From Pseudaquabacterium terrae (GTDB lineage Bacteria > Pseudomonadota > Gammaproteobacteria > Burkholderiales > Burkholderiaceae_C), in contig NZ_JABRWJ010000001.1 of the NCBI RefSeq assembly GCF_013266755.1, forward strand, positions 930,001 to 994,000: a stretch of DNA of 64,000 bases, in the 5' to 3' direction. Within the stretch, counting starts at the first letter, position 1, and the number at the start of each line of letters is the position of its first letter. The notes under the pieces are model-generated. The model was not told the origin of the DNA. It was given only the letters and a program-made list of their open reading frames with translations, and made no database searches. Of the stretch, positions 5,916 to 63,022 are shown one piece after another. The position numbers were made by a program, and so were the translations under genes.

Positions 5916-5986
5916 CCGATGAGTACATCGGCCGATCCCCCGAGGGGATGCGGGCCGGCTTGGGAGCGGCCCGGCGCTCGGCCCGC
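5916..5986. repeat. intergenic hairpin repeat, copy D (three hairpins)
   Basis: Between the acetyltransferase stop and the proA start, three hairpins follow one another. The first is CCGATG/CATCGG at 5916-5931. The second is ATCCCC-CGA-GGGGAT at 5935-5949. The third has a 10 bp stem (5950-5959 with 5976-5986, one bulged T) around the loop TTGGGAGCGGCCCGGC. The loop is nearly identical to that of copy B at 51.75 kb, whereas the stems are different sequences that remain self-complementary. See the findings for the whole family. Confidence 0.75.
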
Positions 5987-6022
5987 GAATGCGACGGTGT
6001 CTCATGGGCGGATTTTCCCAGA

Positions 6023-6892
6023 TCACCCCGCAGCGCGCGCCGCCGACAAGGATCGCCTCAGCAGCAGCTGGTGCAAGGGCTCGACCTGCCAGCCCTCGGC
6101 GGCCAGCGCATCGCCGCCGCGGTCAGGCCGCAGCAGCTGCGGCATGCGCAGCGTGGCCTGCGGGTAGTGCGCGGCCAGCGCTCGGGCGAGCTGCCGGGCG
6201 CCGTGCTGGCGCGCGTCGGCATCGACCAGGCACAACACGCCGATGCGCAGCGGGTCGGCATCGCTGAAGACCAGCTGCGCACCGGCGCAGCGCCAGGCCT
6301 TCAGCGGCACGCGCAGCGCGGCGATCGAGGCCGCCGTCTGCTGGAACGGCAGGCCCTCGACGCCGCAGTGTTCGAGCCAGGCGACCGCGTCGGCCTGGCC
6401 GCCGCTCTCGTCGATGCGGTCCTCGACCGGCACCAGGGCCCCCCCCGACGCGCGCGCGTAGCCGTGCAGCTCCGCGACCTGCTCGAAGCCGCGCGAGTGG
6501 TACAGCGCCAGCGCCCGCGCATTGCGCGCAAAGACTTCGAGCTCGATCGAGCGGTCGCCCCGCGCCTGCGCCTCGGCGAGCACCCGGTCGAGCAGCCGCG
6601 GTGCATGGCCTGCGCCGCGGGCCTCGGGCCGCGCGCCCATCGTCGCCAGCCGGCTGCGGCCCGGTGCGATGTGCGGCGCGACGAGCGCGAAGGCCAGCAC
6701 CTGACCGCCCTCGACGATCACGCGGCTGGCCGCCAGCTGCGCGCCCTGGCGCGCCAGCAGCAGTGGCCAGGCCTCGGCGCTGACGGCCATCGGGCCGATC
6801 AGGTAGTCGCCGAAGGCGGCGTTGAAGGCCTCGCGCAGGGCATCGGCCTCCACCGCGTCGGCGGCCAGCACGGCAGGAGTGGGGAACATCAT
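6023..6892 (-). CDS. GNAT-family N-acetyltransferase with degenerate C-terminal half
   Basis: A 289-residue acetyl-CoA-dependent acyltransferase of unknown substrate. The first half (about 1-150) is a clear GNAT domain: TMGARPEARGAGHAPRLLDR is the acetyl-CoA loop and NARALALYHSRGF is the C-terminal beta-alpha motif. The second half resembles a second GNAT fold that has lost the recognisable acetyl-CoA loop, as in tandem GNAT proteins. The ATG overlaps the stop of the AEC transporter gene (ATGA), so the two are translated together. The substrate could be related to what the transporter moves, but nothing in the sequence shows it. Confidence 0.8.
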   Translation of the reverse strand: MMFPTPAVLAADAVEADALREAFNAAFGDYLIGPMAVSAEAWPLLLARQGAQLAASRVIVEGGQVLAFALVAPHIAPGRSRLATMGARPEARGAGHAPRLLDRVLAEAQARGDRSIELEVFARNARALALYHSRGFEQVAELHGYARASGGALVPVEDRIDESGGQADAVAWLEHCGVEGLPFQQTAASIAALRVPLKAWRCAGAQLVFSDADPLRIGVLCLVDADARQHGARQLARALAAHYPQATLRMPQLLRPDRGGDALAAEGWQVEPLHQLLLRRSLSAARAAG

Positions 6893-7902
6893 GCAATCGC
6901 TCCGAGCACCGCCAGCCACAGCGGCGCCGTCAACACGAAACCGAGGGTCGAGACGACGATCGTCGTCGTCGCCTCGGCTTCCTGCACCCGGTAGCGCTGG
7001 GCGAACATCAGCGCATTGCTGCCCGTGGGCAGTGCGGCCATCAGCACGACGACCTGCAGCGGCAGCCCCGTCAGGCCGAAGCCCCAGTAGGCGGCCGCCA
7101 GCACCAGCGCCGGCAGCGCGATGAGCTTCAGCAGGCTGATGACCAGCGCGCCGCGCAAGCCGCCGCCCGTGCCGGAGTAGGCCAGCGACAGGCCGATCAG
7201 CACCAGGCACATCGGCGGTACGGCCGTGCCCAGCAGCGCCAGCGTCTCGTCGAGCGGGCCGGGCAGCGGCCAGCCGGTGACGTTCCACAGCATGCCGGCG
7301 AGCACCGGCAGCACGACCGGGTGGATGATCGTATTGCGCACCGTAACGCGCAAGGTACGCAGCAGGCCGGCGGTGGCCTCGTGGCGGGCGCGGGCGCGCG
7401 CCAGGTCGAGCTCGACCAGCACGGTCAGCACCGACAGCAGGATCAGCGCATGCAGGCTGATCAGCGCGATGTGGATGCCCAGGCCCTTCTCGCCGAACAG
7501 CCCCGCGACCAGCGGCACGCCGACCTGCAGCGAGTTGCCGAAGGTCGCCGCGATCGCCCGCGCCGACGGCGCGGCGGCGGCGCGCTCGTGCGCTTCGAGG
7601 TCGCCGCCGGCGGTCGGCGCGCGGCCGCGCCAGCGCTGCACCGCGTAGACCACCAGCAGCATCGCCACCACCGGCACGAAGAACGCCACCACCGAGCCCC
7701 AGGGCATGGTCGACGGATCGAGCCGCGCGGTGGTGCGGAACAGCAGCGCCGGCACGAAGATGTAGAAGGCCGCGTTCGACAGCGTGCGCGCCGGGTCGCT
7801 GCCGGGGCTGCCCTGGCCGAGCCAGCGCATGCGCCCGGCGATCCAGCCGAGCGCGACGGTGACGAAGATCGCCAGCAGCTTGTGAAAGACGAGCATCGAC
7901 AT
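6889..7902 (-). CDS. AEC (auxin efflux carrier) family transporter
   Basis: A 337-residue integral membrane protein with about ten hydrophobic segments in two blocks joined by a basic, Ala-rich cytoplasmic loop (about residues 80-105), the layout of bacterial AEC/MdcF-type permeases. NTIIHPVVLPVLAGML and ALPTGSNALMFAQRY are conserved family segments. The start at 7902 (MSMLVFHK) puts the first helix at the N-terminus; an in-frame codon further upstream would add a non-hydrophobic tail. Members export or import small organic acids; the substrate is not predictable here. Divergent from the PilJ-like sensor gene across 75 bp. Confidence 0.85.
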   Translation of the reverse strand: MSMLVFHKLLAIFVTVALGWIAGRMRWLGQGSPGSDPARTLSNAAFYIFVPALLFRTTARLDPSTMPWGSVVAFFVPVVAMLLVVYAVQRWRGRAPTAGGDLEAHERAAAAPSARAIAATFGNSLQVGVPLVAGLFGEKGLGIHIALISLHALILLSVLTVLVELDLARARARHEATAGLLRTLRVTVRNTIIHPVVLPVLAGMLWNVTGWPLPGPLDETLALLGTAVPPMCLVLIGLSLAYSGTGGGLRGALVISLLKLIALPALVLAAAYWGFGLTGLPLQVVVLMAALPTGSNALMFAQRYRVQEAEATTTIVVSTLGFVLTAPLWLAVLGAIA

Positions 7903-7929
7903 GGGCTGCGCATGATGCCTGCAAACGGC

Positions 7930-7945
7930 GGGCACGATGCTTGCG
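7930..7945 (+). promoter_or_regulatory. putative sigma-54 (-24/-12) promoter
   Basis: GGGCACGATGCTTGCG contains GGCACG, four bases, then TTGC, with GG (7931-7932) and GC (7943-7944) at exactly the spacing sigma-54 requires. Only the first consensus base (T) differs. It lies 33 bp before the start of the PilJ-like gene and reads toward it. A CCCGAG/CTCGGG hairpin at 7956-7972 sits between the promoter and the start codon, partly covering the ribosome binding region. Confidence 0.55.
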
Positions 7946-7977
7946 TACGGCCTGCCCCGAGAACCACTCGGGAGCCG

Positions 7978-8667
7978 ATGATGGCCAGCCTGGCAATGAA
8001 CACGGTGCTGCGCGCGGTCGCGCCGGCGAAGGTCGACGAGCCGCCTGCGATCGGCGCCGAGCTGTGGTCGGCGCTGATCAACCTGGCCGGCCGCCAGCGC
8101 ATGCTGTCGCAGCGCATCGTGCTGATGGCGCTGCTGGCCGACCGCGGCGACGGCTCGGCGCGCGCCGCGGCGCTGGATGCGCTACGCCAGTTCAGTGCCG
8201 CGCACACCCGGCTGGTCCGGGGCGGCGATGGCCTGCCGCCGCCGCCCGCGCTGCTGCGCCAGGCGCTCGCCGGTCCGGCGGGCGAGGCCGGCGGCGCCAG
8301 CGCCGAAGCCGCGGTGCGCGATTTCGCCGCGCTGGCCGAACAGGCACTGCGCACCGATGTGGCGCTGGCACGCCCCGCGTTGAGCCAGCTCGTCGAACGC
8401 GCGACGCCGGTGCTGGCGCTGCTGAACCGGCTGACGCAGCTCTACGAGACGCTGGCGCGTGATGCCGCGGCGCGTGCGCAGCAGCGCCAGGCCGGGCTGA
8501 TCGGCCGCATCGAGCGCATCGCCGGCGAGGCGCGTTTCGTCGCGCTGAACGCGCGCATCGTCGCCGCGCGCGCCGGCAGCGCCGGGCGCGAATTCGGCGT
8601 CGTCGCGACGCGGCTGGTCGAGGTCAGCGCGGAGATCGAGGGCCTGAGCCGGGAGGCGATGCGCTAA
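7978..8667 (+). CDS. soluble PilJ-type sensor with truncated MCP-like signalling tip
   Basis: A 229-residue protein with no signal peptide or membrane helix. The N-terminal part carries the PilJ/NarX-type ligand-binding motif (INLAGRQRMLSQRIV, about residues 37-51), found in nitrate/nitrite sensors and type IV pilus chemoreceptors. The C-terminal 50 residues (FVALNARIVAARAGSAGREFGVVA) resemble the conserved hairpin tip of methyl-accepting chemotaxis proteins. There is no HAMP domain and the coiled coil is short. It is a single gene, convergent with the DUF167 gene, and has a sigma-54-like promoter. Function is inferred to be cytoplasmic sensing; the partner is unknown. Confidence 0.75.
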   Translation: MMASLAMNTVLRAVAPAKVDEPPAIGAELWSALINLAGRQRMLSQRIVLMALLADRGDGSARAAALDALRQFSAAHTRLVRGGDGLPPPPALLRQALAGPAGEAGGASAEAAVRDFAALAEQALRTDVALARPALSQLVERATPVLALLNRLTQLYETLARDAAARAQQRQAGLIGRIERIAGEARFVALNARIVAARAGSAGREFGVVATRLVEVSAEIEGLSREAMR

Positions 8668-8963
8668 CGCTTCAACTGCGCGTCCACCCACGCAGTCACG
8701 GTCGCCGACGGCAGCTCGATCAGCACCTGCTTGCGCCGCGCCGCCTGACCGCGCAGCAGGCTCAGCGCCCGCTTCGGGCAGCCGAGCTCGCCGGCCAGCC
8801 AATCGATCAGCCGCGCATTGGCCTTGCCGTCGACGGGCGGCGCCGCCAGGCGCACGCGCAAGGCACCGTCATGCGTGCCATCGACCTCGGTTCGCTTGGC
8901 GTTCGGCACCACGCTCACGTCGAGCACGCAGCTCAAGTCGCCGCGCGCCACGACAACACTCAC
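8664..8963 (-). CDS. DUF167/YggU family protein
   Basis: A 99-residue protein matching the small YggU/DUF167 family of unknown function. The family signature is present in VRLAAPPVDGKANARLIDWLA and LLRGQAARRKQVLIE. The GTG start (8963) overlaps the topB stop by 4 bp (GTGA). Its TAG stop overlaps the TAA stop of the convergent PilJ-like gene. In many proteobacteria this gene follows yggT; here it is attached to topB instead. Confidence 0.85.
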   Translation of the reverse strand: MSVVVARGDLSCVLDVSVVPNAKRTEVDGTHDGALRVRLAAPPVDGKANARLIDWLAGELGCPKRALSLLRGQAARRKQVLIELPSATVTAWVDAQLKR

Positions 8964-11548
8964 TTCACCTCCACCGCCTTCTTCGCGGCGGCCGTCTTCT
9001 TCGCCGCCGGCGCCTTCGCGCCGCGCGGTTCGAATTCGAAGCCGACCTTGCCCTCCTTCGCATCCCAGACCAGGAAGGCCTTGAACTTGCGCCGCGTGCG
9101 GTTCGAGACGAAACCATCGAGCAGGTCGGTGCGGCCGCTGGCCAGCAGCTTGGTCACCTGCTCGTGCGGGATCGGCTGCGTCAGGATCACCTTGCCGGTC
9201 TTGAAGTCGCAGGTCACGTGCGCGCCGACGGCATGCTCGCAGACGTAGTTCGTGCCGTACTCGTGCACGTGGCCCTTGCACTTCGGGCAGGCGCCCAGCG
9301 AGGGCTGGCCGCTGAAGTCGACCGGCTCGCCGTCACCCTCGGCATTCTTCTGGTCCTCGCCGAAGTCGAACTCCAGCTTCCAGTTGCTGATCTCCTCGTC
9401 GTAGACGAGCTTCAACTCGGCGGTGAAGGGCCAGCCGGCCTTCGAGCGGAAGCCTTCGAGCGGGCCGATCTTCTTGTCGCGCAGGAAAGTCTCGACCTCG
9501 TGCAGCTCGAAGCTGCGCGCGCCGGGGATCTTGGTGATCGAGAAGCCGCAGCCTTCCGATGCGCCGTCGGCGCCGGTGCAGGTGAAGCGGCGGTAGTTCT
9601 CCTTGACGATGCCGCTGCATTGCGGGCAGCGCGTCGACAAGGTGGCGTAGTCGCCGGGGATCGTGTCGCGGTCGTATTCCTTGGCCTTGCGCACGATGCG
9701 CTCGGCCATCTTGGCGATCTCCTTCATGAAGGTCTCGCGCGCCAGCCGGCCATGCTCCATCTCGGCGAGCTGGTATTCCCAGTTGCCGGTCAGCTCGGGC
9801 TTGGTCAGGTCCTCGACGTCCAGGCCGCGCAGCAGCGTCATCAGCTGGAAGGCCTTGGCGGTGGCGATCAGGTCGCGGCCTTCGCGCAGCATGTACTTCT
9901 CGAGGATCAGGCCTTCGATGATCGCCGCGCGCGTCGCCGGCGTGCCCAGGCCCTTCTCGTGCATCGCGGCGCGCAGCTCGTCGTCGTCGATCAGCTTGCC
10001 GGCGCCTTCCATCGCCGACAGCAGCGTGCCTTCGTTGTAGCGCGCCGGCGGCTTGGTCTTCAGCGCATTGACGCTGACGTGCTCGTTGGCCACCTGCTCG
10101 TTCGGCTGCACCGGCACCAGGTTGGCGTCCTCGTCCTGCGCTTCCTTGCCGTAGACCGCGAGCCAGCCCGGGTTCACCAGCACCTTGCCGTTGGTCTGGA
10201 ACTGGTGCTCGGCGACCTGGGTGATGCGCGTGGTGACCATGAATTCGGCCGGCGGGTAGAACACCGCCAGGAAGCGCTTGACGACCATGTCGTAGAGCTT
10301 GGCCTCGGCCTCGGTCAGGCTCTTCGGCGGCTGCAAGGTCGGGATGATCGCGAAGTGGTCCGAGACCTTGGTGTTGTCGAAGACGCGCTTGATCGGCTTG
10401 ACGTAGCCGTCCTTCAGGCCCTTCTTCGCGTGCGGCGCCAGCTCGCGCAAGGGGCCCGGCAGGTCCTCGCTGGCGATCATCTCGAAGGTCTGCTTGACGA
10501 CGCCGACGTAGTCCTCGGGCAGTGCGCGCGAGTCGGTCCGCGGGTAGGTCAGCACCTTGTGCTTCTCGTACAGCGCCTGCGCGATCGACAGCGTGGTCTT
10601 GGCCGAGAAGCCGAAGCGGCCGTTGGCCTCGCGCTGCAGCGTCGTCAGGTCATAGAGCAGCGGGCTCGACTGGTTGCTGGGCTTCGACTCCTCGCTGACG
10701 GTGCCGGGTTTGCCGAGCACCGCGTGGCGAATAGCGTTGGCCTCGGCCTCGGTCCACAGGCGGTCGGCGCGCGCATCAGGGTCGTCGTTCTTCTTGAACT
10801 TCGGATCGAACCACTTGCCTTCGTAGCCGCCGGCGGCGGCCTCGAAGCCGGCCTTGATTTCCCAGTAGTCGCGCGCGACGTGCTTGCGGATCTTCTCCTC
10901 GCGCTCGACGACGATCGACAGCGTGGGCGTCTGCACGCGGCCGACGGTGGTCAGGAAGAAGCCGCCGTCGCGCGAGTTGAAGGCCGTCATCGCGCGCGTG
11001 CCGTTGATGCCGACCAGCCAGTCGGCCTCCGAGCGGCTGCGCGCCGCATCGGCCAGGCCGAGCATCTGCTGGTCGCTGCGCAGCTGCTCGAAGCCGTCGC
11101 GGATCGCCTGCGGCGTCATGCTCTGCAGCCACAGCCGCCGGACCGGCTTGTTCAGCGGCGCCTTGCCGCCGTCGGCGTACTGCACGATCAGACGGAAGAT
11201 CAGCTCGCCCTCGCGGCCCGCGTCGCAGGCGTTGACGAGCGCGGTGACGTCCTTGCGCTTGACCAGCTTGACCACCGCGTTGAGCCGCGTCTTGGCCTTG
11301 TCGATCGGCGCCAGGTCGAAGTGCGGCGGCACCACCGGCAGGTGGGCGAAGCTCCACTTGCCGCGCTTGACGTCGTATTCCTCGGGCGCCTTGATCTCGA
11401 CCAGGTGGCCGACGGCGCTGGTGACGACGTGGGTCTCGTTCTCGAAGTGCTCGGCGTGTTTTTCGAACTTGCCGGTCACCGGCGTCAGCGCGCGCACGAT
11501 GTCCTGCGCCACGCTCGGCTTCTCGGCAATGATGAGTGTCTTGCTCAT
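8960..11548 (-). CDS. topB: DNA topoisomerase III
   Basis: Type IA topoisomerase that cuts one strand and passes another, acting on recombination and replication intermediates. The 862-residue protein opens with the Toprim domain (MSKTLIIAEKPSVAQDIV; DAGREGELIFRL holds the acidic residues). The active-site tyrosine is in LTYPRTDSR, around residue 330. After the core there are two zinc ribbons (CPQCSGIVKENYRRFTC and CPKCKGHVHEYGTNYVC) and a Lys/Ala-rich tail. This zinc-finger-bearing form is longer than E. coli TopB and is common on betaproteobacterial chromosomes. Divergent from the SET-domain gene. Confidence 0.95.
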   Translation of the reverse strand: MSKTLIIAEKPSVAQDIVRALTPVTGKFEKHAEHFENETHVVTSAVGHLVEIKAPEEYDVKRGKWSFAHLPVVPPHFDLAPIDKAKTRLNAVVKLVKRKDVTALVNACDAGREGELIFRLIVQYADGGKAPLNKPVRRLWLQSMTPQAIRDGFEQLRSDQQMLGLADAARSRSEADWLVGINGTRAMTAFNSRDGGFFLTTVGRVQTPTLSIVVEREEKIRKHVARDYWEIKAGFEAAAGGYEGKWFDPKFKKNDDPDARADRLWTEAEANAIRHAVLGKPGTVSEESKPSNQSSPLLYDLTTLQREANGRFGFSAKTTLSIAQALYEKHKVLTYPRTDSRALPEDYVGVVKQTFEMIASEDLPGPLRELAPHAKKGLKDGYVKPIKRVFDNTKVSDHFAIIPTLQPPKSLTEAEAKLYDMVVKRFLAVFYPPAEFMVTTRITQVAEHQFQTNGKVLVNPGWLAVYGKEAQDEDANLVPVQPNEQVANEHVSVNALKTKPPARYNEGTLLSAMEGAGKLIDDDELRAAMHEKGLGTPATRAAIIEGLILEKYMLREGRDLIATAKAFQLMTLLRGLDVEDLTKPELTGNWEYQLAEMEHGRLARETFMKEIAKMAERIVRKAKEYDRDTIPGDYATLSTRCPQCSGIVKENYRRFTCTGADGASEGCGFSITKIPGARSFELHEVETFLRDKKIGPLEGFRSKAGWPFTAELKLVYDEEISNWKLEFDFGEDQKNAEGDGEPVDFSGQPSLGACPKCKGHVHEYGTNYVCEHAVGAHVTCDFKTGKVILTQPIPHEQVTKLLASGRTDLLDGFVSNRTRRKFKAFLVWDAKEGKVGFEFEPRGAKAPAAKKTAAAKKAVEVK

Positions 11549-11585
11549 GGAGTGCAGTCGGGGTTCCTGAAGAAGGCGGTCTGCC

Positions 11586-11591
11586 TACAAT
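11586..11591 (+). promoter_or_regulatory. putative -10 element for the SET-domain gene
   Basis: TACAAT on the plus strand, with a weak -35 candidate TTCCTG at 11564-11569 (16 bp spacer). It would start transcription about 40 bp before the chosen ATG at 11640. It matches the TACAAT found just before leuS. No operator is visible. Confidence 0.4.
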
Positions 11592-11639
11592 CCGTTTCTT
11601 TCGCGCGCGCACGCGGCACACGTGTACACGCGCGCGCCC

Positions 11640-12203
11640 ATGAATTCACTTTACCGAATGAAGCCGACCACGCAAGCCGACGCCCCCACGACCCGCGGCG
11701 GAAAGAGAAACGGCACGGCCGCCGCCGAGCCCACGACACCGGCCGCCGGCCGGCGCATCCAGATCCGCAAGAGCGGGGTGCACGGCAAGGGGGTCTTCGC
11801 GCGGCGCCCGATCAAGAAGGGCGAGACGGTGATCGAGTACACGGGCGAGATCATCACCTGGCCGGAGGCGCTGCGCCGCCATCCGCACGACCCGAGCGAT
11901 CCGAACCACACCTTCTACTTCCACATCGACGAAGGCCGCGTGATCGATGCGAAATTCGGCGGCAACGCGGCGCGCTGGATCAACCATGCCTGCGCGCCGA
12001 ATTGCGAAGCCGACGACGACGGCGAGCGCGTCTTCATCAAGGCGCTGCGCAATATCAAGCCGGGCGAGGAGCTGTTCTACGACTACGGCCTGGTGATCGA
12101 CGAGCGCTACACGCCGGCGCTGAAGCGCCAGTTCGCCTGCCGTTGCGGCAGTGCCGCCTGCCGTGGCACGATGCTGGCGCCGAAGCGCCAGAGGCTCGGC
12201 TGA
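11640..12203 (+). CDS. SET-domain protein-lysine methyltransferase
   Basis: A 187-residue SAM-dependent lysine methyltransferase of the SET family. After a basic, low-complexity N-terminus, GVHGKGVFARRPIKKGE opens the SET domain, RWINHACAPNC is the SAM-binding NHxCxPN motif, and EELFYDYGL holds the catalytic tyrosine. The C-terminal CRCGSAACRGTM matches a post-SET cysteine cluster. Bacterial SET proteins of this type are frequent in Burkholderiales; the target protein is not known, and a DNA-binding protein is one possibility. Alternative starts are GTG 11622 and ATG 11658; none has a good Shine-Dalgarno sequence. Confidence 0.88.
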   Translation: MNSLYRMKPTTQADAPTTRGGKRNGTAAAEPTTPAAGRRIQIRKSGVHGKGVFARRPIKKGETVIEYTGEIITWPEALRRHPHDPSDPNHTFYFHIDEGRVIDAKFGGNAARWINHACAPNCEADDDGERVFIKALRNIKPGEELFYDYGLVIDERYTPALKRQFACRCGSAACRGTMLAPKRQRLG

Positions 12204-12225
12204 CCCGACTGAACGAGTTGGCGAG

Positions 12226-14018: not shown

Positions 14019-14022
14019 GCTC

Positions 14023-15993: not shown

Positions 15994-16027
15994 CGGGCGT
16001 GATGCTAGCGGCGCAGCGTAAATGCCC

Positions 16028-16063
16028 CGTGAAGAAGCGCAACGCCCGGCCGGAGCCGGGCGT
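16028..16063 (-). terminator. intrinsic terminator downstream of gapA
   Basis: A perfect 9 bp stem ACGCCCGGC/GCCGGGCGT (16042-16050 with 16055-16063) with a four-base loop, followed on the minus strand by TGCGCTTCTTC. It lies about 40 bp past the gapA stop codon. The T tract is interrupted, so it is moderate in strength. Confidence 0.6.
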
Positions 16064-16105
16064 CGAAGCGGACACATTTCACGTCCGCGCAGGCGAGGAA
16101 AGGCG

Positions 16106-19193
<3,088 letters not shown>

Positions 19194-19246: not shown

Positions 19247-19289
19247 AAACGCGGATTTTAGCGGCTCGATAATCCAACGATGAACGACC

Positions 19290-19357
19290 CCCAGCTCACT
19301 GCGTTCGCGGCCCCCGAGGGGCACTCAGCGCCCTTCGGGCGGCCGGGCGGGCGCTGA
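19290..19357 (+). repeat. intergenic hairpin repeat, copy A, ending on the speD start codon
   Basis: The element reads CCAGCTCACTGCGTTCGCG, then GCCCC-CGA-GGGGC (19310-19322), then a 9 bp stem TCAGCGCCC/GGGCGCTGA (19325-19333 with 19349-19357) around the 15-base loop TTCGGGCGGCCGGGC. The last base of the stem is the A of the speD ATG. The leading part matches copies B and C, and the loop is identical to those of copies C and E. Confidence 0.8.
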
Positions 19358-45837: not shown

Positions 45838-46388
45838 CCGCGGCCTGGACCGCGCTGGCGGCGCTGCTGGCGATCGGCAGCCTCGTCGTGTGGTGGTTGC
45901 CGGCGCAGCGCTGGGACTGGCAGCCCGGCCTCGCAGCAAGCCAGCCCTGGCGCTGGTGGACCGCTGCGTTCGTGCACTGGAGCGGGCTGCACCTCGGTGC
46001 CAACCTGCTCGGGCTGCTGCTGGTCGCTTTGCTCGGCCGCGCAGCAGGCTGCGGCCAGCGCGCCGCGATGGCGTGGTTCATCGCCTGGCCATTGACCCAC
46101 GTCGCGCTCATGCTGCAGCCATCGCTGCACCACTACGGCGGGCTGTCGGGCGTGCTGCACGCGGGTGTCGCCGTCGCCGCGTGGCAGCTGCTGCGCTCGA
46201 AGCCGTTGCTGCGGCCGCTGGTCGGCGTCGCGCTGCTGGCCGGACTGGCGATCAAGGTCTGGTTCGAAGCGCCCTGGCGCGGTCCGCTGCGCACCGTGCC
46301 GGGCTGGGACATCCTGATCGCGCCCGCTGCGCACGCCAGCGGCAGCCTGGCCGGCGTGCTGTGTGCTGCTTTGCTGATCCGGCGATGA
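45816..46388 (+). CDS. rrtA: rhombosortase (rhomboid-family protease for GlyGly-CTERM proteins)
   Basis: A 190-residue membrane protease with about six helices. The nucleophile is Ser111 in GGLSGVLHA, and the base is His173 in AAHASGSLAG; HLGANLLG (59-66) matches the conserved N-terminal His/Asn region. These features fit the rhombosortase subfamily, which cleaves GlyGly-CTERM tails. No ATG is available at the N-terminus; GTG 45816 inside the end of glnE gives a complete first helix. The GlyGly-CTERM subtilase at 14 kb is a likely substrate. The stop codon lies within a hairpin repeat. Confidence 0.85.
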   Translation: MAGRFRLAAAWTALAALLAIGSLVVWWLPAQRWDWQPGLAASQPWRWWTAAFVHWSGLHLGANLLGLLLVALLGRAAGCGQRAAMAWFIAWPLTHVALMLQPSLHHYGGLSGVLHAGVAVAAWQLLRSKPLLRPLVGVALLAGLAIKVWFEAPWRGPLRTVPGWDILIAPAAHASGSLAGVLCAALLIRR

Positions 46389-46530
46389 GCCAGCGCCCGG
46401 CCGCCCGAAGCTGGCTCGGACAGGCTGGCCCTTGCGGGCCAGCCGTTCGCCAGGCGTCGTTCGTCCGCTGGACGACCGACGTCCGGGCTCACCCCCCTTG
46501 GGGGGACCGGTGCGCAGCACCGTAGGGGGG
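46387..46530. repeat. multi-hairpin intergenic array, including repeat copy E
   Basis: Almost the whole gap between rrtA and the EamA gene folds. GAGCCAGC/GCTGGCTC (46387-46417) encloses GCCCGGCCGCCCGAA, the reverse complement of the loop of copies A and C. GGCTGGCCC/GGGCCAGCC follows (46423-46444, loop TTGC). Next is a 14 bp stem with one mismatch and one G-T pair around GCT (46453-46483). Then C6 (46492-46497), G6 (46500-46505), a CGGTGC/GCACCG hairpin, and a second G6 (46525-46530) that also serves as the ribosome binding site for the next gene. Confidence 0.75.
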
Positions 46531-46534
46531 CTCA

Positions 46535-47434
46535 ATGACCGAACGCAAGACGCACCTCGATCCGCTGGCCATCGGCCTGTTGCTGCTGTGCTGCGCGCTG
46601 TGGGGCCTGAACCAGGTCGCGACCAAGCTGACGCTGGCCAGCGTGCCGCCGCTGACGCAGGCGGCGCTGCGCTCGCTGGGCGCGGCGGTGCTGGTCGCGC
46701 TGTGGGCGCGCCATCGCGGCATATTGCTGGGCGTCGGCAACGGCACGCTGAAGGGCGGCGTGCTGGCCGGGCTGCTGTTCGCGCTCGAGTTCGGCTGCAT
46801 CTTCGTCGGCCTGCAATACACCTCGGCGTCGCGGATGATCGTCTTCATCTACCTCGCGCCCTTCGTCGTCGCGCTCGGCATGCCGCTGGTGGCGAAGAGC
46901 GAGCGCCCGGACGCGGTGCAGCTGATCGGGCTGGGGGCTGCATTCGCCGGCGTCGCCTGGGCCTTCGCCGAAGGCTGGCAGTCGCCGACCGTCGGCGACC
47001 GGCAATGGCTCGGCGATGCGCTCGGCGTCGCCGCGGCGCTGCTGTGGGGCGGCACGACGCTGGTGATCCGCGGCAGCCGGCTGACGACGGCGTCGCCGGA
47101 GCAGACGCTGCTGTACCAGCTGGCGATCTCGGGCGTCGCGCTCGGCGCGGCGGCGTGGGTCGCCGGCGAGGCCTGGCCCGTGCAATGGGGCGCGGGGGCG
47201 CTGGCGCTGCTCGGCTACCAGACGGTGATCGTCTGTTTCGCCAGCTACCTGCTGTGGTTCTGGCTGATCCGGCACTACCCGGCGACGCGTCTGGCCGCCT
47301 TCACGCTGCTGACGCCCTTGTTCGGGCTGCTGGCCGGCGTCGGGCTGCTGCACGAGCCCTTGACCGCGCGCCTGCTGATCGCTTGCGCGGCGGTCGCCGT
47401 CGGCATCGCGCTGGTCAACCGACCGGCGCGCTAG
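46535..47434 (+). CDS. EamA-family (DMT) exporter
   Basis: A 299-residue membrane protein with ten helices in two EamA repeats: LLLLCCALWGLNQVATKLTL opens the first, and FASYLLWFWLIRHYPATRLA followed by FTLLTPLFGLLAGVGLLHEP marks the second. The substrate is unknown. It is not closely similar in sequence to the EamA protein at 20.5 kb. The Shine-Dalgarno sequence is a run of six G located 4 bp before the ATG, part of a foldable leader. Convergent with the diiron desaturase-like gene. Confidence 0.88.
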   Translation: MTERKTHLDPLAIGLLLLCCALWGLNQVATKLTLASVPPLTQAALRSLGAAVLVALWARHRGILLGVGNGTLKGGVLAGLLFALEFGCIFVGLQYTSASRMIVFIYLAPFVVALGMPLVAKSERPDAVQLIGLGAAFAGVAWAFAEGWQSPTVGDRQWLGDALGVAAALLWGGTTLVIRGSRLTTASPEQTLLYQLAISGVALGAAAWVAGEAWPVQWGAGALALLGYQTVIVCFASYLLWFWLIRHYPATRLAAFTLLTPLFGLLAGVGLLHEPLTARLLIACAAVAVGIALVNRPAR

Positions 47435-51163: not shown

Positions 51164-51230
51164 CATTGCTCTGTCACACGCCCTGCGGTTTACGCCTCGC
51201 CTGAAGCCGCCGTGATCCGGGGGGAATGCC

Positions 51231-51701
51231 ATGAACCGTCTCGCTGCCATCCTGCCCGCCAGCAATGTGCTGGTGAATGTCGACGCCACCAGCAAGAAGC
51301 GGGCTTTCGAGCATGCGGGGCTGATGTTCGAAAACCTGCACTCGATTGCACGGGCGACGGTCACCGACAACCTCTTTGCCCGTGAGCGGCTCGGCTCCAC
51401 CGGCCTGGGCCATGGCGTGGCCATTCCGCACGGCCGCATCAAGGGTCTGAAGAACCCGCTGGCGGCGGTGCTGCGCGTGCAGCAGCCGATTCCCTTCGAC
51501 GCGCCCGACGACGAACCGGTCAGCCTGCTGATCTTCCTGCTGGTGCCCGAAGCCGCGACGCAACGCCACCTGGAGATCCTGTCGGAGATTGCCGAGCTGT
51601 TGTCCGACCGCGAGCTGCGCGAGCGCATGAAAGCCGCCGAGGATTCGGCAACGCTGCACAAGCTGATCTCCGACTGGGCGCCGCTGAAGTCGGTCGCCTG
51701 A
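51231..51701 (+). CDS. ptsN: nitrogen-regulatory PTS EIIA protein (PtsN)
   Basis: A 156-residue regulatory phosphotransferase domain. The phosphorylated His67 is in GVAIPHGRI, and PVSLLIFLLVPEAATQRHLEIL is the typical EIIA-Ntr helix region. In the nitrogen PTS it receives phosphate from NPr and regulates potassium transport and other targets rather than carrying sugar. It lies upstream of hprK, separated by a 93 bp gap that contains a hairpin repeat. Confidence 0.93.
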   Translation: MNRLAAILPASNVLVNVDATSKKRAFEHAGLMFENLHSIARATVTDNLFARERLGSTGLGHGVAIPHGRIKGLKNPLAAVLRVQQPIPFDAPDDEPVSLLIFLLVPEAATQRHLEILSEIAELLSDRELRERMKAAEDSATLHKLISDWAPLKSVA

Positions 51702-51714
51702 AGAATGTCAGCCC

Positions 51715-51783
51715 CCAGCTCACTTCGTTCGCGGCCCCCGAGGGGCGCTCAGTCGGCTTGGGAACGGCCCGGCGCCGACTGAG
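51715..51783 (+). repeat. intergenic hairpin repeat, copy B
   Basis: Begins CCCAGCTCACTTCGTTCGCG like copies A and C, then GCCCC-CGA-GGGGC (51734-51746 region), then a 10 bp stem CTCAGTCGGC/GCCGACTGAG (51748-51757 with 51774-51783) around TTGGGAACGGCCCGGC. The loop is almost the same as in copy D. It lies between ptsN and hprK, ending 11 bp before the hprK GTG. Confidence 0.8.
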
Positions 51784-51794
51784 GCCACCGCTCG

Positions 51795-52748: not shown

Positions 52749-52751
52749 CGG

Positions 52752-53180: not shown

Positions 53181-53281
53181 GGCGTCAGGTGCTGCGAGGG
53201 GCGCGCGGGGCAGGTCGCTAGAATCCGCCGCATCATATCCAGACGCCCGCGCCGTGCCCGCCGCGTTGGGGCGCGCTCCGC

Positions 53282-54642
<1,361 letters not shown>

Positions 54643-54645
54643 CCC

Positions 54646-55308: not shown

Positions 55309-55310
55309 AC

Positions 55311-55736
<426 letters not shown>

Positions 55737-55776
55737 TCGGGGCCCGCGAATGGCCTTCGCTGGGGGGCCCACTCCC

Positions 55777-55782
55777 TACAAT
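55777..55782 (+). promoter_or_regulatory. putative -10 element for leuS
   Basis: TACAAT only 8 bp before the leuS ATG. If used, transcription would start at or within 1-3 bases of the start codon, giving an almost leaderless mRNA. No Shine-Dalgarno sequence is visible between the element and the ATG. No clear -35 was found. Confidence 0.4.
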
Positions 55783-55790
55783 CGCGCCCC

Positions 55791-58463: not shown

Positions 58464-58466
58464 CGC

Positions 58467-58949
58467 ATGTTGAGGCGTTCGCTGCTCGTGCTGCTGCCGG
58501 CCGCCCTCGCCGGCTGCGGTTTCCAACTGCGGCGTGCGCCCGAGCTGCCGTTCAGCCGCCTCGCGCTGGCCGGCTTCGCGCCGCGTTCGCCGCTGGCCGA
58601 GGAGCTCAAGCGCACGCTGGAGCCGACGGTCGAGGTCGTCGAGAGCGTCAACCGCGCCGAAGCGGTGCTGCAGGCGCTGGTCGACCGGCGCGAGCGCAGC
58701 GTCACCGCGCTGACCGCCGCCGGCCAGGTGCGCGGCGTGCAGCTGCGCGTGCGGCTGGACTTCCGGTTGACGACGCCGGGCGGCCGCGAGTACATCCCCG
58801 ACACCACCCTGCAGCTGGCGCGCGACATGAGTTACAGCGAGACCTTCGCGCTCGCCAAGGAGCAGGAGGAGCAGCAGCTCTACGCGGCGCTGCAGACCGA
58901 CATCGTGCTGCTGCTGATGCGGCGCCTGGCCGAAGTCAAGAAAACCTGA
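58467..58949 (+). CDS. lptE: LPS-assembly lipoprotein LptE
   Basis: A 160-residue outer-membrane lipoprotein that plugs LptD and helps deliver lipopolysaccharide to the cell surface. The signal MLRRSLLVLLPAALAGC ends at lipobox Cys17. The remainder is the alpha/beta LptE fold (GFQLRRAPELPFSRLAL and DTTLQLARDMSYSETFALAK). It sits between leuS (3 bp) and holA (4 bp), the conserved position that helps identify this poorly conserved protein. Confidence 0.92.
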   Translation: MLRRSLLVLLPAALAGCGFQLRRAPELPFSRLALAGFAPRSPLAEELKRTLEPTVEVVESVNRAEAVLQALVDRRERSVTALTAAGQVRGVQLRVRLDFRLTTPGGREYIPDTTLQLARDMSYSETFALAKEQEEQQLYAALQTDIVLLLMRRLAEVKKT

Positions 58950-58953
58950 ACCG

Positions 58954-60069
58954 ATGCAGCTGCGCTCCGATCAGCTATCGACGCACCTCGCCCGCGGCCT
59001 GAAGCCGATCTACACGGTGCACGGCGACGAGCCGCTGCTGGCGCAGGAAGCCGGCGATGCGATCCGCGCCGCTGCACGCGCCGCCGGCTACGGTGAACGC
59101 AAGGTCTTCACCGTCAGTGGCGCGCACTTCGACTGGTCGGGTCTGCTCGGCGCGGCGCAGGCGATGAGCCTGTTCGCCGAGCGCCAGCTGATCGAGATCC
59201 GGATTCCGAACGGCAAGCCGGGCAAGGACGGCTCCGAGGCCTTGAAGCGTTATTGCGACGGCCTCAACGAGGACGTGCTGACGATCGTGCACTGCCCCAA
59301 GCTCGATCGCCAGCAGCAGCAGGGTGCCTGGTTCACGGCGCTCGACTCAGCCGGCGTGACGATCCGCGTCGACCCGATCGAGCGCCGCGCGCTGCCGCAA
59401 TGGCTGGCGCAGCGGCTGGCGGCGCAGCAGCAGCGCGTCGAGGATGGCGAGCCGGGGCAGCGCACGCTGGCCTTCTTCGCCGACCGCGTCGAAGGCAACC
59501 TGCTGGCCGCGCACCAGGAGCTGCAGAAGCTGGCGCTGCTGTACCCGGCCGGCACGCTGGCCTTCGAGCAGGTCGAATCGGCGGTGTTGAACGTCGCCCG
59601 CTACGACGTCTTCAAGCTCGGCGAGGCGGTGCTCGCCGGCCAGACGGCGCGCGTGCTGCGCATGCTCGACGGCCTGCGCGCCGAAGGCGAGGCGACGGTG
59701 CTGGTGCACTGGACGCTGGCCGGCGACATCCTCGCGCTGAAGGCCGCGCACGACGCGCTCGGCGACGGCAAGCCGCTGCCGGTGGCGCTGCGCGAGGCGC
59801 GTGTCTGGGGCCTGAAGGAGCGGCTCTTCGAACGCGTGCTGCCGCTGCTCAGCGCGCACCAGCTGGCCCACCTGGTCGAAGCCGCCAGCACCTGCGACGG
59901 CGTGATCAAGGGCCTGAAGCATCCGCAGTGGCCGCTCGAGCCCTGGGAGGCGATCCGCCGGCTGGCGCTGCTGCTGACGCAGGCGGTCGCCGCGCCGCCG
60001 CCCCGGCGCGGGCACGCCCCGGTGCTGCTGCGGCTGGCGCTCGAGCCGAGTCAGCAGGCGAGTCAATAG
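58954..60069 (+). CDS. holA: DNA polymerase III delta subunit
   Basis: Clamp-loader subunit that opens the beta sliding clamp. The 371-residue protein has the AAA+-like domain without a Walker A motif, opening MQLRSDQLSTHLARGLKPIY and containing HGDEPLLAQEAGD, then the helical collar domain (about 215-340). The last 30 residues are Pro/Arg-rich. It overlaps the 3' end of the convergent hydroxyacid dehydrogenase gene by 7 bp. proA, which often follows holA in Burkholderiales, is instead at 4.6-5.9 kb. Confidence 0.93.
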   Translation: MQLRSDQLSTHLARGLKPIYTVHGDEPLLAQEAGDAIRAAARAAGYGERKVFTVSGAHFDWSGLLGAAQAMSLFAERQLIEIRIPNGKPGKDGSEALKRYCDGLNEDVLTIVHCPKLDRQQQQGAWFTALDSAGVTIRVDPIERRALPQWLAQRLAAQQQRVEDGEPGQRTLAFFADRVEGNLLAAHQELQKLALLYPAGTLAFEQVESAVLNVARYDVFKLGEAVLAGQTARVLRMLDGLRAEGEATVLVHWTLAGDILALKAAHDALGDGKPLPVALREARVWGLKERLFERVLPLLSAHQLAHLVEAASTCDGVIKGLKHPQWPLEPWEAIRRLALLLTQAVAAPPPRRGHAPVLLRLALEPSQQASQ

Positions 60070-60995
60070 CCCCGAGTTCGATCGACGAGGTTGGCGAGCG
60101 GCCGGCCGGCGGCGAGCGCCTCGATGTTGTCGGCGGCGATGCGCGCTGCGCTGCGCAGGTCGGTCTGCGCCGCGGCATGCGGCAGCACGGTGATGTACTC
60201 ATGGCGCCAGAACGGATGCTCCGGCGGCAGCGGCTCGTGCGCGAAGACGTCGAGCACCGCATGCGCGATGCGCCCGCTGGCCAGCGCGGCGAGCAGGTGC
60301 GCTTCGACCAGATGCGCGCCGCGTGCCAGGTTGACCACCCCGGCGCCGGCCGGCATGGCGGCGAAGAAGCTCGCGTCCAGCAGGCCGCGCGTTTCAGGCG
60401 TCAGCGGCAGCAGGTTGATCACGATATGCGCCTGCGGCAGCGCGGCGTCGAGGCCGTCGCGCCCGTAGTACAGCGTGACGCCCGGCTCGGCCGCGACGGC
60501 GTTGCGGCTCCAGGCGGCGACGCGATAGCCCTGCTGCTGCAGCCGCCGCGCCGCGCCGCGCCCCATCTGGCCGCAGCCGAGCACCAGCACCGTGACCTCG
60601 TCGGCACGGCGCTGCGGCAGCACGTGCCAGACCCGTTCACGCTGCTGCGCGGCATAGCGGAAGAAGTCGCGCTGCAGCGCCAGCACGGCCCACAGCGCGG
60701 TTTCGGCCATGGCCGCATTCATCGCCGGATCGACCATGCGCGCGACGGGCACGCCATCGGGCAGCGTGGCGTCGCCGAGCAGGCGGTCGACACCCGCCCA
60801 CAGCGACTGGATCAATCTCAGCGCCGGCAGGCCCTGCAGGCTGCCGGGCGGTGGATTGGCGACGATCGCGGCGTCGATGGGGGTCACGGCGTCGCGCGCG
60901 AGCAGCAGTCGATGAGCCGGCAATGCGGCGCGCAGCGCCTGCGCCCACGCCGCTTCTTCGCCCGGGTCCCAGGTTCCGGCCAGCAGCAGGTTCAT
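60063..60995 (-). CDS. D-2-hydroxyacid dehydrogenase, glyoxylate/hydroxypyruvate reductase A-like
   Basis: A 310-residue NAD(P)H-dependent dehydrogenase. The nucleotide loop is VLGCGQMGRGAARRL, lacking the third glycine in its usual place; the catalytic set is Arg in NLARGAHLVE, Glu in VFAHEPLPPEHPFW and His in TVLPHAAAQT. The pattern fits the GhrA group, which reduces glyoxylate and hydroxypyruvate. Start ATG 60995 overlaps the pncC stop (ATGA). It is the last gene of the thiL-pgpA-pncC set. Confidence 0.85.
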   Translation of the reverse strand: MNLLLAGTWDPGEEAAWAQALRAALPAHRLLLARDAVTPIDAAIVANPPPGSLQGLPALRLIQSLWAGVDRLLGDATLPDGVPVARMVDPAMNAAMAETALWAVLALQRDFFRYAAQQRERVWHVLPQRRADEVTVLVLGCGQMGRGAARRLQQQGYRVAAWSRNAVAAEPGVTLYYGRDGLDAALPQAHIVINLLPLTPETRGLLDASFFAAMPAGAGVVNLARGAHLVEAHLLAALASGRIAHAVLDVFAHEPLPPEHPFWRHEYITVLPHAAAQTDLRSAARIAADNIEALAAGRPLANLVDRTRGY

Positions 60996-61468
60996 CGACG
61001 GTCGATCCTTTCGAGCAGGCCGGCGAGCGCAAGGGCCACGGTTGCCGCGCGCACCGCCGCACGATCGCCTTCGAAGACTTTGCGCTCCACGTGCGCCGCG
61101 CCGCCGCGCTGCAGCCACGCCAGCCAGACGAGCCCCACCGGCTTGTCCAAGCTGCCGCCCCCCGGGCCGGCGATGCCGGTCACCGCGACGGCCCAGTCGG
61201 CGGGGGAGTGCTGCAGCGCACCTTCGACCATCGCCCGCGCGACCGGCTCGCTGACCGCGCCATGCGCGGCAATCAGCGCCGGCGCCACGCCGAGCAGCTC
61301 GCTCTTCGCCGCGTTGCTGTAGGTCACGAAGCCGCGCTCGAACCAGTCGCTCGAGCCGGCCAGCTCGGTGCAGGCGCCGGCGATCAGGCCGCCGGTGCAG
61401 CTCTCGGCGGTCGCCAGGCGCCAGCCGTGCACACGCAGTCGCTCGGCCAGGTGCTCGACGACGTTCAT
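60992..61468 (-). CDS. pncC: nicotinamide-nucleotide amidase (CinA C-terminal family)
   Basis: A 158-residue stand-alone CinA-C domain that hydrolyses NMN to nicotinate mononucleotide in pyridine-nucleotide recycling. The conserved parts are LATAESCTGGLIAGACTELA with the catalytic Ser, FVTYSNAAKSELLGV and AVAVTGIAGPGGGS. There is no N-terminal CinA domain. It overlaps pgpA upstream and the hydroxyacid dehydrogenase downstream, both by 4 bp. Confidence 0.92.
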   Translation of the reverse strand: MNVVEHLAERLRVHGWRLATAESCTGGLIAGACTELAGSSDWFERGFVTYSNAAKSELLGVAPALIAAHGAVSEPVARAMVEGALQHSPADWAVAVTGIAGPGGGSLDKPVGLVWLAWLQRGGAAHVERKVFEGDRAAVRAATVALALAGLLERIDRR

Positions 61469-61980
61469 GCGGCCCGCCACAGCGCGATCGGCAGCAGCGT
61501 GCACAGCGCCGCCACCAGGTCGTCGAACAGGATGCCGAAACCCTCGCGCCAGCCGATCGCCGTGCCCGGCCGCAGCTTGAAGAGCCGATCGGCCCAGCCG
61601 ACCGGGCCGGGCTTCGCGGCGTCGAACAGGCGGAACAGCGCGAACGCGATGGCCTGGCCGACGAAGCCGGCCGGCATCACCAGCCACAACACGAGCCAGA
61701 AGGCGAGCACCTCGTCCCAGACGATCGCGCCGGGGTCGGACAGGCCCAGGTCGCGCGCGGTGCGCGTGCAGGCCCACCAGCCGACGAACAGGCTGCCGAT
61801 CAGCAGCAGGCCCCAGCCGAAGTCGTCGAGCCAGCGGTCGAGTACCAGGAAAGCCACCCAGGCCCACAAGGTGCCGACGGTGCCGGGCGCCCACGGCGAC
61901 AGCCCGCTGCCGAAGCCCAGTGCGATCCAGTGCGCGGGGTGGCGCAGCATGAAGCCGGCCGTGGCGACTTGGGCCGTCAT
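61465..61980 (-). CDS. pgpA: phosphatidylglycerophosphatase A
   Basis: A 171-residue integral membrane phosphatase that makes phosphatidylglycerol. The signature GFGSGLSPWAPGTVGTL is at about 22-38, and the acidic motif IVWDEVLAFWLVL and a later GFGILFDDLVAA supply the conserved Asp/Glu residues. Four hydrophobic segments are visible. ATG 61980 overlaps the thiL stop by 4 bp. thiL-pgpA-pncC is a common gene order in proteobacteria. Confidence 0.94.
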   Translation of the reverse strand: MTAQVATAGFMLRHPAHWIALGFGSGLSPWAPGTVGTLWAWVAFLVLDRWLDDFGWGLLLIGSLFVGWWACTRTARDLGLSDPGAIVWDEVLAFWLVLWLVMPAGFVGQAIAFALFRLFDAAKPGPVGWADRLFKLRPGTAIGWREGFGILFDDLVAALCTLLPIALWRAA

Positions 61981-62945
61981 GACTTGAAGTGGTCGAAGCC
62001 CTGGCCGACGGCCACCGCCTGGCCGGCATCGTCGATCACCCGCAGCCCCGGCTCGGCCTCGATGCGGCCGATGCGGGTAACGCCGACGCCGGCGCCGTGT
62101 GCCGCCTCGCGCACCGCGGCATCGGCCGTGGCCGGTGCGGTGAACAGCAGCTCGTAATCGTCGCCGCCGGCCAGCGTGCATTCGCGGCGCCAGGGCAGCG
62201 GCTGCGCCGCCAGCACCGCGCTCTGCGGCAGCGCGTCGGCATCGATGCGCGCGCCGACGCCGGAGCGCCGCAGCACGTGGCCGAGGTCGCCCACCAGGCC
62301 GTCGCTCAGGTCGATCGCGCTGGTTGCCAGCCCGCGCAGCGCGAGGCCCAGCGTCACGCGCGGCTGCGGCAGCTCCATCGCCGCGCGCGCGCGCTCGAAG
62401 CCCTCGCCGGGCAGCGACAGGCGGCCGCGGAAGACTTCCAGGGCGAGCCGCGCATCGCCGATGCCGCCGCCCAGCGGATGGCTGACCCACAGCGCCTCGC
62501 CGGGCCGCGCGCCGTCGCGCCGCAGCGCGCGGCCGGGCGGCACCTCGCCGAACACCGTAACGCATAAATTGAGCGGCCCGGCGGTGGTGTCGCCGCCGAT
62601 CAGCTCGATGCCCTGCGCATCGGCCAGCGCATGCAGCCCGCGCGCGAAACCTTCGAGGAAACCTTCATCGACGCGCGGCAGCGCCAGCGCCAGCGTGTAG
62701 GCCAGCGGCCGCGCGCCGCAGGCCGCCAGGTCGCTCAGGTTGACCGCCAGCGCCTTGTGGCCGAGCCGCTCGGGATCGACCGTCGACAGGAAGTGCCGGC
62801 CTTCGACCAGCATGTCGCAGGAGATCGCCAGCTGCATGCCCGGTGTCGGCGCGATCAGCGCGCAGTCGTCGCCGATGCCGAGCAGCGCATGGCGCGCCGG
62901 CCGCTGGAAGTACTTCGCGATCAGGTCGAATTCGCCGAGGGACAT
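61977..62945 (-). CDS. thiL: thiamine-monophosphate kinase
   Basis: Phosphorylates thiamine monophosphate to the active diphosphate. The 322-residue protein of the PurM-like fold has GIGDDCALIAP (metal/ATP), SCDMLVEGRHFL, NLSDLAACGARPL and the late AIDLSDGLVGDLGH and GGDDYELLFTAP motifs. The ATG forms the end of hairpin repeat C, so its initiation region would be folded in the mRNA, as with speD. It is the first gene of a coupled four-gene operon. Confidence 0.95.
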   Translation of the reverse strand: MSLGEFDLIAKYFQRPARHALLGIGDDCALIAPTPGMQLAISCDMLVEGRHFLSTVDPERLGHKALAVNLSDLAACGARPLAYTLALALPRVDEGFLEGFARGLHALADAQGIELIGGDTTAGPLNLCVTVFGEVPPGRALRRDGARPGEALWVSHPLGGGIGDARLALEVFRGRLSLPGEGFERARAAMELPQPRVTLGLALRGLATSAIDLSDGLVGDLGHVLRRSGVGARIDADALPQSAVLAAQPLPWRRECTLAGGDDYELLFTAPATADAAVREAAHGAGVGVTRIGRIEAEPGLRVIDDAGQAVAVGQGFDHFKS

Positions 62946-63022
62946 CAGTGCCCGCCCGGCCGCCCGAAGGGCACTGAGCGCCCCTCGGGGGCCGCGAACG
63001 AAGTGAGCTGGGGGCAGACCAT
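62945..63022 (-). repeat. intergenic hairpin repeat, copy C, ending on the thiL start codon
   Basis: Read on the minus strand, the copy starts CCCCCAGCTCACTTCGTTCG, continues through GCCCC-CGA-GGGGC, and ends with a 9 bp stem TCAGTGCCC/GGGCACTGA (62977-62969 with 62953-62945) around TTCGGGCGGCCGGGC. The last base is the A of the thiL ATG. Compared with copy A, one base pair of the stem has changed on both sides (C-G to T-A). Confidence 0.8.

Follow-up and report, generated by a model that had tools for sequence, protein, structure and literature searches.

A dispersed double-hairpin repeat of Burkholderiales that often sits at start codons and may relay translation into the next gene

The window analyzed here is a stretch of 64,000 nucleotides from Pseudaquabacterium terrae (RefSeq assembly GCF_013266755.1, contig NZ_JABRWJ010000001.1, positions 930,001 to 994,000), in which five intergenic hairpins with shared loops and differing stems had been predicted from the sequence alone. 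These hairpins belong to one family, which is best read, with a probability of about 0.68, as an oriented, non-autonomous mobile repeat of Burkholderiales, some 75 to 80 bp long and composed of two hairpins, that would be tolerated because it relays translation. A typical copy provides an ATG start, is open in every forward frame and ends on a stop codon that overlaps or touches the next ATG. On arriving at a start codon, such a copy would take over the initiation context (as a leaderless ATG, or as an ATG beside the upstream stop), a meaningless peptide of about 25 codons would be made in whichever frame resulted, and termination-reinitiation would pass the ribosome from the stop of the repeat to the ATG of the real gene. 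Being nearly transparent to translation, copies could build up in operons and before housekeeping genes, while the palindrome of hairpin 2 would be kept at the DNA level, probably because DNA copying or a mobilizer uses this hairpin. Placement at start codons together with coupled frames best explains where the copies sit.

Copies of the repeat follow a common order: a few variable bases, CCCC(A/C)AG, a nearly fixed CTCACT(T/G)CGTTCGC core, hairpin 1 (a run of four or five C paired with one of four or five G) and hairpin 2. The outer stem of hairpin 2, as seen in alignment A2 and covariance model R1, is 9 bp long and variable, with one unpaired C on its 3′ side; the inner stem reads TT(C/G)GG / CC(G/C)GG and has two T.G positions. 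Tandem copies are spaced at 75 to 81 bp, coupled frames mostly run to 24 to 27 codons, and the GC content of matches spans 0.55 to 0.90 (mostly 0.69 to 0.82). Several copies in the source genome (L238, L240, L244, L248-L250, L252, L257, L258, L260-L263 and L266) have hairpin 1 enlarged by GGATCC-containing modules of about GGGATCCGAAGGATCCCTTGCGGGATCC.

The covariance model search put forward in the original prediction was carried out on the genome and its relatives, and it recovered the window hairpins as a single family. Counts from this search are lower bounds, as no more than 150 candidates were scored in the source genome, 41 per genome in the family sample and 26 in the class sample. The source genome (8.04 Mb in 56 contigs) yielded at least 137 matches to R1 at E ≤ 0.01 among its best 150 candidates. 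At E ≤ 1e-4 all 21 genus genomes searched matched, with 4 to 114 copies each, as did at least 102 of 120 genomes in the family sample; in the class sample 3 of 185 genomes matched at E ≤ 1e-5, two of them being the source genome and a genome from its own family, which leaves 1 match among the other 183. Among the matches listed for a 26-nt pattern, most came from Rubrivivax, Piscinibacter, Ideonella, Aquabacterium, Leptothrix and other Burkholderiales. Variovorax, Azoarcus and Thauera also gave matches, those outside the family being an Azoarcus plasmid (BLAST) and Thauera (pattern scan, among the matches listed), and tandem arrays were seen (L077, L084, L160). Also among the matches listed were copies in records labeled as Brevundimonas and Chitinophagaceae metagenome-assembled genomes (L138, L146). 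A phage search with one copy returned no match. Short motifs gave a clear excess over chance genome-wide, where the 28-nt first half found 47 matches (≤3 mismatches) against none for the reversed pattern. Within the window alone, the same kind of evidence was weak to moderate: with mismatches allowed, the observed count was reached by 16 of 100 shuffles for CGGCCCCCGAGGGG, 3 of 100 for the TTC loop and 63 of 100 for the TTG loop.

To place copies relative to genes, gene starts were called with our own codon-usage gene finder trained on 512 open reading frames (a version trained on the longest frames was discarded, having picked antisense frames). The 295 model matches collapsed to 272 distinct copies at 248 loci (95 + 100 + 53; L029, L197 and repeated places left out); for the source genome, 102 distinct copies were read in context out of its 137 matches, and the remainder were mostly weak. 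Most copies are oriented in the direction of transcription. Bridges, defined as copies between two genes of the same direction with at most 60 nt on either side, made up 134 of the 272, and a further 59 were leaders, with a same-strand gene start at most 60 nt downstream and no same-strand gene end near upstream; apart from the antisense and intragenic copies counted further below, the others were tails or lay farther off. By a separate definition of nearness, 199 copies had a same-strand gene start near them, and in 195 of these a start codon also stood just ahead of the core. Mapping to gene ends, which had been proposed at the outset, puts main-type copies mostly at start codons, a placement the original prediction did not see. 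Relative to the upstream stop, 72 of 136 bridges had the start codon of their frame at −1, +2 or +4. A −10-like hexamer lay 5 to 11 nt before the ATG in 34 of 59 leaders and 17 of 136 bridges (shuffled leaders: 3.0 ± 1.6), a position in leaders that would be as in leaderless transcripts.

The sense strand of the repeat is open to an unusual degree, with 257 of 272 copies stop-free in all three forward frames (composition shuffles: 2,538 of 5,440; reverse strand: 22 of 272). The frame that opens upstream also ends where the next gene begins. Under a strict criterion (frame end within −5 to +4 of the ATG of the next gene) coupling held in 154 of the 195 copies with a nearby same-strand gene start and an upstream start codon, compared with 70 ± 6 (maximum 93 in 1,000) for upstream-end chimeras and with 9 and 25 when the start was shifted by 1 and 2 nt. 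The source genome alone gave 57 of 76 (28 ± 4, maximum 39), and a lenient count gave 177 of 195 (130 ± 5, maximum 148). An initial count drew on 146 copies parsed with the TTC loop, of which 117 offered both a start codon and a called gene; it gave 99 (41 ± 5, maximum 58), and by eye 10 of its 18 failures look like TTG or GTG codons inside the loop picked by the gene finder. The three internal distances taken modulo 3 fell into 16 different combinations among the 99 coupled copies of the 117. In-frame fusions numbered 11 of 195. Each of the three frames was used to read the core among the 177 coupled or fused copies (82, 61 and 34), which argues that the peptide is not what is kept. By eye, TGATG still closes one copy whose hairpin 2 has been lost (L037), and copies in tandem arrays (L077, L084, L085) are linked by TGATG or by in-frame read-through. 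Four of eight fetched plasmid stretches came with gene tables, and in three the frame joined the annotated neighbors exactly: Variovorax WDL1 (TAG-GTG and TGA-A-ATG), Variovorax PBL-E5 and Azoarcus (ATGA at both frame ends). In the fourth, from Paraburkholderia (AP028202.1; L340, 1001-1357), the frame is joined in frame to an annotated SdhE-type protein, which starts at the ATG of the repeat, its first residues being repeat-encoded; this is either an in-frame fusion or an annotation artefact. These junctions suggest that the frame is translated and that reinitiation at its stop feeds the gene. Complementarity between the element consensus and the 16S rRNA locus (4,529 bases, flanks included) was 8 and 9 nt on the two strands, no longer than in shuffles (mean 8.9, maximum 13).

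Copies are present at a start codon in some species and missing from the same site in others. Four sites (thiL, nuoI, nuoH and hprK) were followed through related genomes, chosen because the source genome has a copy there. At thiL, whose start was located in 14 of 20 loci scanned, 12 of the 14 loci read have no copy; the source genome and one other (G018) were filled, with the copy set directly between a leaderless-position ATG and the ATG of the gene. By eye, 11 of the 12 empty loci have a −10-like hexamer a few nt before the thiL ATG. At nuoI 15 of 17 loci were empty, and the two that carry a copy, in the source genome (G000) and in G005, have it at the same start codon; at nuoH (start located in 15 of 17) 14 of 15 were empty and 1 filled. 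The second-type copy before hprK was missing from 17 of 18 loci, one of which held a different repeat. Filled and empty sites show that insertions differ between species, at the start codon itself for thiL, nuoI and nuoH, and they are consistent with movement as DNA units. Of the terminal inverted repeats and target-site duplication typical of a miniature inverted-repeat transposable element (MITE), the copies offer TCAG/CTGA at the ends of some copies only and an ATG on both sides of the filled thiL and nuo sites. A bolder form of the proposal, in which this would be a class of repeat that inserts exactly at start codons by active choice of target rather than through survival alone, as a translated spacer between the host gene and its promoter or upstream neighbor, with a stop-free body readable in any frame and its own stop-start junction, is put forward tentatively and is itself doubtful. 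In a separate observation, four copies (L243, L216, L204, L208) lie within one stretch of the source genome (C55 344184-352984) that contains nuoH by Pfam match; other genes there we take from their sequence to be nuoG, nuoI and nuoN, a 70-residue nuoI piece having no Pfam match. At the ptsN-hprK gap, G018 has a different hairpin-rich insertion (L293) where the source genome has its second-type copy.

Coupling of this kind might instead mark a regulatory leader, in which an upstream open reading frame and a hairpin control the downstream gene by strict translational dependence or attenuation. The 3′ arm of hairpin 2 holds the stop of the frame and touches the gene start, so that the start region would be buried if the leader went untranslated, and at both thiL and nuoI two species share a copy at the same start codon. 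But the peptide is not conserved, the core being read in three frames as given above; the host genes look miscellaneous from their N-termini; and copies at the four sites examined are rarely common to several species. For an amino-acid leader-peptide attenuator in particular, the 177 copies offer no conserved peptide or regulatory codons, and the peptides differ across the three frames. We regard a regulatory leader as unlikely, and tolerance of the repeat would seem a better description than regulation by it.

The stems of hairpin 2 vary and remain complementary, as originally claimed. A2 comprises 48 sequences with a 15-nt loop, hand-picked from 82 non-redundant copies, and its covariation over the whole structure was 0.447, compared with 0.100 ± 0.010 in shuffles (0 of 500 as high) and at most 0.074 when slid; two-sided change occurred in 10 of 14 pairs of the second helix, though two of the five measures did not exceed shuffles (two-sided-change pairs, 58 of 500; further pair types, 271 of 500). 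Because several 15-nt-loop copies with poor or odd stems were left out (including L031:2178, L072, L078, L094 and L170), the 93% of positions paired in A2 is a flattered figure. The test was for this reason repeated on all 131 distinct parsed hairpins, unselected (an early parse set held 198 copies with the core, 179 of them with a parsed hairpin 2): 89.3% of outer-stem cells were paired against 52.3 ± 1.2% in shuffles, covariation was 0.876 against 0.207 ± 0.014 (0 of 500 shuffles), and 48 of the 131 were fully Watson-Crick. Hairpin 1 hardly varied. The outcomes that would have refuted the original prediction, uncompensated stem changes or a copy number no higher than in shuffled sequence, did not come about. 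That prediction offered two causes, a selected fold or a mechanism that keeps the arms complementary. Over the nine outer pairs (n = 1,179) there were 1,033 Watson-Crick pairs, 20 G.U, 38 A.C and 88 others, some of the last stemming from misparsed stems. Since G.U is rarer than A.C, and RNA selection should tolerate G.U more, DNA-level upkeep or copying of the palindrome is favored, and the stems suggest the second of the two causes over the first.

A selected RNA fold, serving as a messenger stabilizer, processing site or terminator, could draw on the strong covariation and on the distribution of the second loop type in the source genome. There, the 19 copies with loop TTGGGARCGGCCCGGC comprise 8 bridges, 11 copies after a gene without a near downstream start and no leaders, making a 3′-end role plausible for them, compared with 25 leaders, 32 bridges, 2 tails and 4 others among 63 copies of the main (TTC) type. 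The split is less clean outside this genome, where 136 TTC copies divide into 65 bridges, 34 leaders, 17 tails and 20 others, and the second type (n = 7) into 5 bridges, 1 tail and 1 other. Against a selected fold stand the scarcity of G.U pairs and the position of main-type copies mostly at start codons and not at transcript ends; a scan of the window with Rfam at gathering threshold also found no family. Nor do the leader copies read show a U run after hairpin 2, as in an intrinsic terminator; an ATG and gene sequence follow. We consider this explanation quite improbable. A rival long-range RNA fold, preferred in silico by single copies, showed no clear covariation in A2 (0.086 against 0.077 ± 0.007; 52 of 500 shuffles).

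One published mechanism for DNA-level palindrome upkeep, in the portion of the account bearing on it, is replication template switching (PMC8794818), and compensation almost without G.U fits it. Template switching alone, correcting old hairpins in place with no mobility, nonetheless fails on the empty orthologous sites, on more than 100 copies and on start-codon placement; it has very little probability by itself and is ruled out by the empty sites as a complete account, but it may act alongside mobility of the repeat. Least probable of all is mobilization of repetitive extragenic palindromic (REP) sequences by the Y1 transposase RAYT. In its favor are the dispersal of imperfect hairpins near gene ends, the conservation of their loop and bulge, and some Y1_Tnp match in 13 of 21 genus genomes. 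Yet a PF01797 search of the source genome and genus came up empty in the three genomes richest in copies (G000, 114; G003, 76; G018, 55) and gave a 28-residue piece in G016 (47 copies), two strong matches (E of about 1e-42 or better) in genomes with only 7 and 4 copies, and otherwise weaker ones.

Several observations weigh against a mobile repeat that relays translation. No transposase, clear terminal inverted repeats or target duplication longer than the ATG was found, and "mobile" accordingly rests on dispersal and on polymorphic sites. The start codons of thiL and nuoI are each occupied in two species, which could reflect loss, gene conversion or functional selection. Of the 195 copies in the strict test 41 failed, some as in-frame fusions and several as second-type copies after stop codons; 17 of the 272 are antisense to all near or far neighbors called, and 7 lie inside a called gene. 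Gene starts depend on our own gene finder, and copies share ancestry, so that the counts are not independent events. If the repeat is the element named below as its closest relative by description, it is also worth noting that no coding sequence was predicted in the small RNA regions of that element, in the part of its account that covers them (PMC3110155).

Each of the five predicted hairpins is present in the window and matches R1 there: 62945-63014 (−) at E = 3e-18, 19288-19357 (+) at E = 2.6e-17 (this copy, L003, being itself one of the 48 sequences in R1), 51712-51782 (+) at E = 7.7e-16, 5915-5984 (+) at E = 1.4e-5 and 46387-46417 (−), hairpin 2 only, at E = 1.4e-4. By R1, three of the copies are full, the fourth is diverged and the last is a lone hairpin 2. 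Both predicted loop types were found, TTCGGGCGGCCGGGC at positions 19334, 46395 and 62954 and TTGGGA(A/G)CGGCCCGGC at 5960 and 51758, although the letters A to E given to the copies do not match coordinate order. A check by eye agrees with the described stems, small first hairpin and bulged T (in the copy at 5915). The original prediction mentions neither the shared GCTCACT(T/G)CGTTCGC segment nor a prevailing orientation, nor the frame linking to the next gene. Gene names in the window (thiL, hprK, ptsN, proA, AdoMet decarboxylase, rhombosortase, EamA, GNAT) derive from NCBIfam or Pfam matches, with ptsN and some others below the curated NCBIfam cut-off and above the Pfam cut-off.

The leader copy upstream of thiL (62945..63022, −) has a 25-codon frame, MVCPQLTSFAAPEGRSVPFGRPGGH*, whose TGA overlaps the thiL ATG (TGATG). 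Its hairpin 2 (62945..62977, −) pairs TCAGTGCCC with GGGCACTGA around loop TTCGGGCGGCCGGGC, with the stop codon of the frame in the 3′ arm; hairpin 1 (62981..62991, −) is CCCC / GGGG, and by eye a −10-like GACAAT (63030..63035, −) lies 7 nt before the ATG of the frame. A second leader copy (19280..19357, +), upstream of the AdoMet decarboxylase gene (start 19357), has an ATG frame ending in TGATG, a hairpin 2 (19325..19357, +) of TCAGCGCCC / GGGCGCTGA and, by eye, a −10-like GATAAT (19268..19273, +) 6 nt before its ATG. Between ptsN (stop 51699-51701) and hprK (start 51795) lies a copy of the second loop type (51705..51782, +) with a 25-residue frame and a hairpin 2 (51749..51782, +) of TCAGTCGGC / GCCGACTGA around loop TTGGGAACGGCCCGGC; the frame opens 3 nt past the ptsN stop and ends 12 nt before the hprK start, with no direct coupling. 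The diverged copy at 5915..5984 (+), also of the second loop type and without the GCTCACT core, lies between proA and a GNAT-family gene, both on the minus strand, and runs antisense to them. At 46387..46417 (−), antisense to flanking plus-strand genes, hairpin 2 alone may be a remnant or a separate hairpin. In the same gap, between the rhombosortase and EamA-type transporter genes, a 46-codon frame (46385-46535, +) starts on the upstream stop (ATGA), ends in TAG shortly before the next ATG and holds another C6/G6 hairpin pair; it is possibly a bridge made by a different repeat.

If this reading is right, a selfish repeat would spread through dense operons by being translatable in any frame and by handing over the ribosome, and it would have added many small, probably unannotated frames to Burkholderiales genomes. 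Start-site annotation would be affected, as the Paraburkholderia SdhE-type protein illustrates, and the copies would be natural material for studies of leaderless initiation and of reinitiation. It would also serve as a test case for the question of whether covarying stems can come about in the absence of RNA selection.

Among named elements, the Beta-proteobacterial repeat element (BRE) comes closest, and the repeat may be the same, a likeness drawn from description and not from sequence. As far as the parts of its account that treat these properties go, BRE is about 75 to 91 bp long with an average GC content of 69% (range 63.7 to 78.9%), is scattered in Betaproteobacteria including Comamonadaceae and also in Rhodocyclales, is mostly intergenic, sometimes overlapping the ends of open reading frames by a few bases or lying inside them, and forms variable-number tandem arrays; mobility is suspected and no function is proposed there (Hot et al. 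2011, PMC3110155). The repeat described here is like it in size, taxa, tandem arrays and suspected mobility, and the GC ranges overlap, with ours higher (mostly 0.69 to 0.82). The frames, coupling, start-codon insertion and covariation are described here and not in those parts of the BRE account (PMC3110155). Rickettsia palindromic elements (RPE), as portrayed in the relevant section of a MITE review, are short mobile palindromes inside genes, translated as part of the protein (PMC10969869). Both are short palindromic repeats that would be tolerated by staying in frame with host genes, whereas most copies of the present repeat form a frame of their own at the start codon, with only the few fusions and intragenic copies counted above. 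REP sequences associated with RAYT are likewise dispersed imperfect hairpins near genes, with a constant 5′ tetranucleotide (GTAG/GGAG) at the foot of the hairpin. The present repeat differs in lacking a Y1 match in the genomes with the highest copy numbers, in lying at start codons and in its nearly stop-free sense strand; by eye, A2 has no constant tetranucleotide before hairpin 2, with GGAG in some rows only. Termination-reinitiation coupling normally joins two functional genes, whereas here a dispersed repeat supplies the upstream frame. The TGATG and ATGA junctions of the repeat are of the stop-start kind that the pertinent part of the literature ties to such coupling between neighboring genes (PMC12548453). 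Within the literature searched, no report of coupling or start-codon insertion by the repeat was found. Dispersed palindromic repeats are already known, and the new property here would be the translatable, bridging frame.

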